A stretch of DNA of 38,111 bases, taken from the NCBI GenBank assembly GCA_029265155.1, contig JAJUJV010000008.1, positions 1 through 38,111 on the forward strand. The letters are read 5' to 3'. Numbering within the stretch: position 1 is the stretch's first letter; every line of letters starts with the position of its first letter. The notes beneath the pieces are model-generated. The model did not search any database. It was given only the letters and a program-made list of their open reading frames with translations, and was not told where the DNA came from. Source of the DNA: Altererythrobacter sp. Lineage in GTDB: Bacteria > Pseudomonadota > Alphaproteobacteria > Sphingomonadales > Sphingomonadaceae. A program made the translations under genes and the position numbers. Below are positions 23,332 to 24,916 of the stretch, piece after piece.

Positions 23332-24126
23332 TCAGGACAGCGGGCGGCTGGAACCGAAGAACAGCGCCTGGCTAATCGCCGCGCGGACCGTGTCTTCCTG
23401 GAATGGCTTGGTGATCAGGTATGTCGGCTCCGGCCGGTCGCCTGTGAGCAGCCGCTCCGGATAAGCCGTGATGAAGATCACCGGCACGCTGTCGATGGCG
23501 AGGATGTCATCGACCGCGTCAAGCCCGGACGAGCCATCGGCCAGCTGGATGTCGGCCAGCACCAGGCCCGGGGTCTTCTCGGCGACGACCTGCTGGGCCT
23601 GGGTGCGCGTCGCGGCGGTGCCGCAGATCTCGTGGCCAAGCGAACGCACCAGATCCTCGAGCTGCATCGAGATCAGCGGCTCGTCCTCGATGATCAGGAC
23701 GCTGGTGGAGGACTCACGCTCGATCTCCTCGACCGCTTCGGTGACGAGCCGGTTCACGTCGTCCTCGTCCATGTCCATGATCCGCGCCGCTTCGGCGGGC
23801 GAGAAATCTTCGACGGTGGTGAGGAGCAAGGCTTGCCGGTTGACGGGCGTGATGCGGCGCAGATGATCCTGCGCGGCCGCTTCGTGCAAGCCGAAGGTCT
23901 CGGGCTCGTCCGCCACTTCCATGTAGGCGCTCGACCAGACCTTGTTGAAGGCGCGGTACAGCGGCACGCGGCCGCCGCGCAGGGAGGTAGCGAGTTCCTG
24001 ATCGGCTAGCGCCGCTTCCAGCGTGGCTTTGACGAAAGCATCGCCGGTCGACTGCGAACCCGTCAGGGCACGCGCATAGCGGCGGAGAAACGGCAGATGA
24101 GCGGCGACTTCGGCCCCAATAGACAT
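23332..24126 (-). CDS. phyR: PhyR general stress response regulator (sigma-like domain + receiver)
   Basis: N-terminal sigma-like MSIGAEVAAHLPFLRRYARALTGSQSTGDAFVKATLEA...; C-terminal receiver SVLIIEDEPLISMQLEDLVRSLGHEICGTAATRTQAQQVV...LADIQLADGSSGLDAVDDIL. Confidence 0.93.
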   Translation of the reverse strand: MSIGAEVAAHLPFLRRYARALTGSQSTGDAFVKATLEAALADQELATSLRGGRVPLYRAFNKVWSSAYMEVADEPETFGLHEAAAQDHLRRITPVNRQALLLTTVEDFSPAEAARIMDMDEDDVNRLVTEAVEEIERESSTSVLIIEDEPLISMQLEDLVRSLGHEICGTAATRTQAQQVVAEKTPGLVLADIQLADGSSGLDAVDDILAIDSVPVIFITAYPERLLTGDRPEPTYLITKPFQEDTVRAAISQALFFGSSRPLS

Positions 24127-24156: not shown

Positions 24157-24181
24157 AACGTGCGCGGGCGAGTCTGGTTCC
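24157..24181 (-). promoter_or_regulatory. EcfG-type sigma factor promoter upstream of phyR
   Basis: Minus strand GGAAC-CAGACTCGCCCGCGCA(16)-CGTT, -10 element 31 nt upstream of the phyR ATG. Confidence 0.8.
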
Positions 24182-24288: not shown

Positions 24289-24313
24289 GGAACACTTAAG
24301 CGGGCGGCTCATT
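24289..24313 (+). promoter_or_regulatory. EcfG-like promoter (one -10 mismatch) for putative sRNA
   Basis: Plus strand GGAAC-ACTTAAGCGGGCGGCT(16)-CATT (consensus CGTT). Confidence 0.5.
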
Positions 24314-24319
24314 GAGAGG

Positions 24320-24409
24320 TTGTCACCGCCGAGACCCCCCCTCCCGTCCAAGCGGCTGGTGATACGATCCCGAAAGGCCTCCACTCAGGAATGAGTGGAG
24401 GCCTTTTTT
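24320..24409 (+). ncRNA. putative small regulatory RNA, GsrN-like architecture (C-rich-loop hairpin + intrinsic terminator)
   Basis: TCACCGCCG (24323-24331) pairs with CGGC-T-GGTGA (24353-24362) enclosing AGACCCCCCCTCCCGTCCAAG; followed by an intrinsic terminator; no + strand CDS present. Confidence 0.65.
24373..24409 (+). terminator. strong rho-independent terminator
   Basis: AAAGGCCTCCACTC-aggaat-GAGTGGAGGCCTTTTTT: perfect 11-bp GC-rich stem, extendable by 3 A-T pairs, with T6 on the + strand. Confidence 0.92.
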
Positions 24410-24484
24410 CTTGCTGGCACGGTTGTTGGTGCTCCGCGCAGGAGACCAGTTCAGCGGAGAAATCGTGGGCTGCTTCCGGAAAGC

Positions 24485-24916
24485 TCAGGAAATAACGTCG
24501 CGAAGCCGGGCGAACAGGCCGGGCTTCGCGTCACCCGCCAGCACTTCTGCCAGTTGCGCCGGATCATAAGGCTTCTCGAAGATCGGGCCGAACTCGCCAA
24601 TCTCCGGAGGGATTTCCTCGGGCGAGCCGGTGGAGAACACGATGCGCGGCCGCTTCGGCCCCAGCAGGTCGACCAGTTCGGCGAGCGCCCAGCCGTCGTC
24701 GCGGTCGGCAAGATGAACATCGAGTACGACCGCGTCCGACTCGCCTTCTTCCAAGGCGAGCATCGTCTCGGCAATGCTGGGGCAGAGCACCACTTCCGCC
24801 GCGCCGGCATCGAGCAATGCCGACTGGAGCGCGACCGCCTGGAGAGGATCATCTTCCACGACGAGCACTCGTCCGAGCTTGCTCTTCCCTTTGCTGGACT
24901 GCTTGGCGCGACGCAT
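24485..24916 (-). CDS. single-domain response regulator (receiver)
   Basis: GRVLVVEDDPLQAVALQSALLDAGAAEVVLC...DAVVLDVHLADRDDGWALAELVD...RIVFSTGSPEEIPPE...FEKPYDPAQLAEVL. Confidence 0.9.
   Translation of the reverse strand: MRRAKQSSKGKSKLGRVLVVEDDPLQAVALQSALLDAGAAEVVLCPSIAETMLALEEGESDAVVLDVHLADRDDGWALAELVDLLGPKRPRIVFSTGSPEEIPPEIGEFGPIFEKPYDPAQLAEVLAGDAKPGLFARLRDVIS

Follow-up and report, generated by a model that had tools for sequence, protein, structure and literature searches.

A candidate small RNA of the general stress response encoded beside phyR in a group of sphingomonads

The intergenic region beside phyR

The window that we analyzed, a stretch of 38,111 nucleotides from Altererythrobacter sp., carries on its minus strand phyR, which encodes the anti-anti-sigma response regulator of the general stress response (GSR; positions 23332 to 24126), and a gene for a single-domain response regulator (24485 to 24916; Response_reg, 36 bits). 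Both genes and their strand had been correctly named in a sequence-only reading of this DNA. The PhyR assignment is secure, since the protein scores 366.9 bits with NF006623, against a cut-off of 240, and has both the PhyR_sigma2 and the PhyR_sigma-like Pfam domains. Between the two genes, the plus strand holds the candidate gene of a small RNA of about 90 nt (24320 to 24411), predicted to start at 24320 (±2) and convergent with the response regulator gene. The long plus-strand frames in the list of open reading frames are antisense to real genes.

An EcfG-type promoter precedes the RNA at 24289 to 24313 of the plus strand, with GGAAC at 24289 to 24293, a 16-base spacer, and CATT at 24310 to 24313; six bases separate this −10 box from the predicted RNA start. 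phyR has a divergent EcfG-type promoter of its own, GGAAC-N16-CGTT, on the minus strand (24157 to 24181). The pattern GGAAC-N16-C[AG]TT occurs only at these two places in the 38-kb window, where 0.33 occurrences would be expected, and in 5 Mb of simulated sequence, 43 such promoters arose, not one of them with a perfect terminator of at least 9 bp behind it.

Downstream lies a 5′ hairpin (24321 to 24364, plus strand), in which UGUCACCGCCG pairs with CGGC-U-GGUGAUA. Its arms, at 24321 to 24331 and 24353 to 24364, form 11 bp with one bulged U and present a C-rich loop, as had been proposed. This loop (24336 to 24349) is composed of a C-run and the presumed seed CUCCCGUCC (24341 to 24349) and reads C7-U-CCC-GUCC in the window. 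A conserved single-stranded linker, ACGAUCCC (24364 to 24371), follows; the short linker of the window reads ACGAUCCCG. The intrinsic terminator (24372 to 24409, plus strand) has stem arms at 24372 to 24387 and 24392 to 24407 and a T6 run at 24404 to 24409. The T6 run had been recognized from the letters, but the stem, then given as a perfect 11 bp, is extended to as many as 16 bp by pairing of AAAG with the U-tract. In comparison with shuffled sequences, the RNA folds 6 to 7 standard deviations lower, and 0 of 200 shuffles were as good (z of −6.7 for the whole RNA and −3.1 for the 5′ hairpin alone).

Conservation of the element among relatives

A BLAST search with a 141-base query found the element in 17 relatives (12 further genera), with identity of up to 98% over about 63 bases. 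From an alignment of 18 sequences (A1), we built a covariance model, R1, which the window's own copy matches with 111.8 bits. When R1 was run over 251 Sphingomonadales genomes, a search that the sequence-only reading had suggested, about 70 of them yielded a single strong copy each (63.9 to 113 bits); strong matches are those above 60 bits, and the remaining scores were about 37 bits or less. All strong copies fall within the window's own GTDB family, and a sample of the alphaproteobacterial class gave no strong R1 match beyond that family. A pattern scan of named records, which is non-exhaustive and silent on absence in other groups, returned at least 119 named loci under the titles Erythrobacteraceae, Novosphingobium, Blastomonas, and unclassified sphingomonad or proteobacterial MAGs. 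Among the matches listed were Erythrobacter, Qipengyuania, Porphyrobacter, Altererythrobacter, Croceibacterium, Croceicoccus, Tsuneonella, Pontixanthobacter, Citromicrobium, Blastomonas marina, Novosphingobium, and similar taxa. Sampled genomes without PhyR are also without the small RNA (e.g., G088, G105, G012, G013, and G151). The RNA is likewise absent from several genera of the family that do have PhyR, their PhyR proteins being 48 to 64% identical, compared with mostly more than 70% otherwise; since these genera have phyR and not the RNA, the latter is non-essential to the sphingomonad GSR.

Promoter and locus counts given below rest on 79 copies, and structure counts rest on 93 distinct sequences. 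All 79 strong copies have a near-consensus EcfG promoter, with GGAAC-N16 at the same position relative to the RNA and an A/T run of 6 to 15 bases upstream of the −35 box; in 76, the −10 box lies at one fixed distance from R1 position 1, the first base of the RNA. The −10 box reads CATT in 67 copies, CGTT in 6, CGTA in 5, and CGGT in 1. Thus, the EcfG-like element was rightly spotted at the outset, but the CATT then taken for a mismatch is what this RNA normally has as its −10 box. A promoter class of exactly this kind, in which the −35 box hardly varies and the −10 box is flexible, has been described in Sphingopyxis (PMC7083833). In 19 of 19 genomes checked among those that carry the small RNA, the nepR promoter reads GGAAC-N16-CGTT, and this contrast with the prevailing CATT suggests either selected promoter strength or a preference among EcfG paralogues.

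The copies occupy one intergenic slot, between phyR and response regulator or acetyltransferase genes, and lie close to phyR, nepR, and ecfG. phyR is beside the RNA in nearly all of them (it was unrecovered in the fetched flank of three), and nepR is located about 3 kb from the RNA, beyond phyR, in most sampled genomes. In Qipengyuania and relatives, a Crp/Fnr-type regulator gene, divergent from phyR, lies between phyR and the RNA (L025:536-1420 (+); also L047 and L008). In a subset of copies, the response regulator gene is absent and the acetyltransferase gene directly adjoins the RNA. The element is decisively beyond chance, because its promoter, RNA, and position are conserved in dozens of genomes.

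The terminator hairpin is palindromic and the minus-strand response regulator gene ends 76 bp from it, so that the hairpin, or a conserved DNA or RNA element, might serve that gene only, with no independent RNA. This explanation, which the sequence-only reading had itself named as a possible refutation, is hardly credible: the T run that follows the stem is mostly 5 to 8 bases on the plus strand and 1 to 3 on the minus strand, the element is kept where the response regulator gene is missing, and both the promoter spacing and a 5′ hairpin with an invariant loop would be left unexplained.

The terminator also covaries, with 13 of its 14 pairs altered on both sides among the 93 distinct sequences. 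Two-sided changes occupy 152 cells, as opposed to 30 in shuffles, and the covariation score of 0.280 falls to 0.094 or less when the partner is slid. The alignment was fitted to the structure of the model, which biases these counts toward that structure, yet the terminator signal far exceeds such bias. In contrast, the 5′ stem shows no two-sided changes over the same 93 sequences and is almost invariant (99.5% of cells paired), too much so for the covariation that was to be sought in the C-loop stem. The copies share a 5′ stem-loop that exposes a C-run, followed by a terminator. None of the 93 copies departs from the loop core CUCCCGUCC or from the 3′ flank of the C-run, UCCCGUCC, and 87 have the linker ACGAUCCC; the C-run beside the core varies in length from 5 to 8, with UUCUUC in one copy.

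Many copies start with AUG or UUG at the position predicted as +1, as would be seen in a coding transcript that is short and leaderless or has a dual function (AUG or UUG UCA CCG CCG ... at the 5′ end). We consider such a transcript very improbable. The distance from these first codons to the seed is spread over all three frames (44, 41, and 8 of 93 sequences), differences in C-run length and stem indels break the reading frame, and conservation in the loop and linker is at the nucleotide level. Since indels place start and seed in all three frames, the stretch is non-coding, and a peptide reading is ruled out by frame. The original proposal of a GSR RNA of about 90 nt beside phyR, non-coding, with a C-rich loop and a terminator of its own, is strongly supported by these comparisons.

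Comparison with GsrN and other small RNAs

GsrN of Caulobacter (CCNA_R0081) has been defined experimentally, with BLAST homologues in Caulobacteraceae only (Tien et al. 2018, PMC5869019); Erythrobacter litoralis, the outgroup of that survey, had no apparent gsrN-like gene. From the pairing sites tabulated there, a GsrN loop ACGCCCCCCGACUUGA with the target UCGGGGGGC can be deduced (PMC5869019). We reached presumed Caulobacteraceae genomes via the holdfast gene HfaA, CC1840 having given zero matches as a probe for them, and then extracted their phyR loci. RNAs at these loci have an EcfG-type promoter and a loop identical to the one deduced for GsrN. A covariance model built from five of them, R2, recovers GsrN in 12 of 16 Caulobacteraceae phyR loci, with 47 to 125 bits. 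Among these 12 loci (L370-L383), one likewise has CATT as its −10 box, and the strict promoter pattern had failed to pick up several.

The sphingomonad RNA resembles GsrN in its promoter of the EcfG/sigmaT type, the A/T tract just upstream of the −35 box, its place at the GSR locus (usual for GsrN), its length (about 100 nt in GsrN), a 5′ stem with an exposed C-run loop, and an intrinsic terminator. The two RNAs differ in the seed, which is CCCCCCGACUUGA in GsrN and CUCCCGUCC here; the C-run is common to both, whereas its 3′ flank is not. The GsrN loop contains an inner hairpin, whereas that of the sphingomonad RNA is simple; GsrN lies downstream of phyR and on its strand in most loci, whereas the sphingomonad RNA is divergent from phyR and has mostly CATT as its −10 box. 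Homology in sequence or structure to GsrN of Caulobacteraceae was not found: R2 gave no match with the sphingomonad copies, R1 gave none with Caulobacteraceae GsrN, and R2 returned nothing convincing over the 251 Sphingomonadales genomes. In three genomes of another Sphingomonadales family, weak R2 matches (L386, L387, and L389; 1501, minus strand) have a conserved stretch in common, AATCCTCGCTGTCGTGACTCAGGCCGGGTGG...CCCGGCCCTTTTTTT, and look like an unrelated small RNA or 3′ element. In another genus of the window's family (G117), an EcfG promoter with spacing of the 16-nt class is followed by a hairpin RNA of a different kind, which has a C8 loop and a terminator (L121:1308-1457 (−)). Like GsrN, it lies directly downstream of phyR and on the phyR strand, and it is possibly a second type of GSR-locus RNA in sphingomonads.

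Two scenarios may account for this mixture of likeness and difference. In one, the small RNA would be a true orthologue of GsrN that has diverged beyond sequence recognition and was relocated across phyR. The common locus, promoter class, and A/T tract agree with orthology, as do a C-run of about 7 in the 5′ loop, a closing stem that begins at +1, a conserved single-stranded linker that includes CGAU, a similar length, and the terminator; moreover, no GsrN proper was found in Sphingomonadales, so that the two RNAs are mutually exclusive in our sample. Nevertheless, we regard orthology as unlikely, given that neither model detects the other RNA, although R2 recovers 12 Caulobacteraceae loci, that the seed, the inner hairpin of the loop, and the side and orientation relative to phyR do not correspond, and that the class sample held no intermediates. 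Alternatively, the RNA may represent a distinct family, not descended from GsrN, that arose in the Erythrobacteraceae/Novosphingobium lineage and filled the slot of GsrN with its own seed and target set; we put this forward tentatively. The early description of the RNA as GsrN-like accordingly stands for its architecture (promoter, locus, C-run loop, and terminator) and falls for homology. We place the RNA, with EcfG control as predicted from its promoter, in the broad kind of EcfG-controlled GSR small RNAs with a C-rich loop and not in GsrN, because architecture, promoter, and neighbourhood are common to the two, whereas sequence, seed, loop structure, and orientation are not.

Other known RNAs were compared as well. 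The putative GsrN-like RNAs of Rhizobiaceae and relatives (PMC5869019, Fig. 9), which we compared by description only, have the EcfG site, GSR proximity, and C-rich 5′ loop in common with the sphingomonad RNA. SuhB of Sphingopyxis granuli TFA (PMC6563040) is likewise a sphingomonad small RNA, linked to Hfq and repressing translation, but it is 61 nt long, is described as highly conserved in the genus Sphingopyxis, is expressed during fast growth, and has no GSR promoter. Rfam 15 at the gathering threshold gave no match in the window. CC1840 (RF01521; 21.5 bits) and ar14 (RF02344; 15.3 bits), whose C-rich hairpins bear a weak likeness to the small RNA, remained far under their gathering scores of 50 and 58.8, and a match to ctRNA_p42d at relaxed E-values was restricted to the terminator hairpin. 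Our literature searches turned up no sphingomonad GSR small RNA, nor a report of GSR-dependent transcription at this locus.

Candidate targets and proposed role

Within 2 to 13 nt before ATG, GGACGGGAG occurred 55 times in 16 genomes, barely more often than the 46 times of the reversed-pattern control, and no orthologous target recurred. Traits of the GsrN family include activation of katG through pairing with the katG leader, as well as processing into a stable 5′ isoform, dependence on Hfq, and protection under stress. Pairing of the loop with katG leaders of 18 genomes was on average no better than with shuffles (2 of 20 sampled genomes returned no katG). This result is still compatible with regulation, but it does not support, for the sphingomonad RNA, the mechanism by which GsrN pairs with katG. 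Pairing with phyR leaders was not significant, nor was pairing with nepR leaders as a group, although a few of the latter reached p values of 0.03 to 0.05. GUCC, next to the C-run, is kept unchanged also in copies that have lost its possible intramolecular GAC partner, from which we infer a probable role in target pairing.

Overall, we consider it highly probable that 24289 to 24411 of the plus strand is the gene of a trans-acting GSR small RNA of about 90 nt, which would be transcribed by EcfG and would act by pairing of its loop with targets. Under stress, phosphorylated PhyR would remove NepR from EcfG, and EcfG-RNA polymerase would then transcribe the small RNA from GGAAC-N16-CATT, alongside the divergent phyR and nepR-ecfG, as far as the intrinsic terminator. 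The 5′ hairpin would keep the loop of C-run and CUCCCGUCC exposed. Judged from GsrN and further RNAs with C-rich loops, this loop most likely pairs during stress, probably with the assistance of Hfq, with G-rich or Shine-Dalgarno-like stretches of target mRNAs, which would change their translation or stability.

GsrN is the only well-characterized post-transcriptional arm of the alphaproteobacterial GSR that we found in the literature. The small RNA described here is a sharply defined candidate for the missing arm in a large group of marine and pollutant-degrading bacteria, and its nine-base invariant loop core is open to direct testing. If the family is indeed independent of GsrN, C-loop RNAs at the GSR locus would have evolved more than once; the small RNA would also bear on whether C-loop small RNAs recur in the GSR circuit or go back to a single inheritance.
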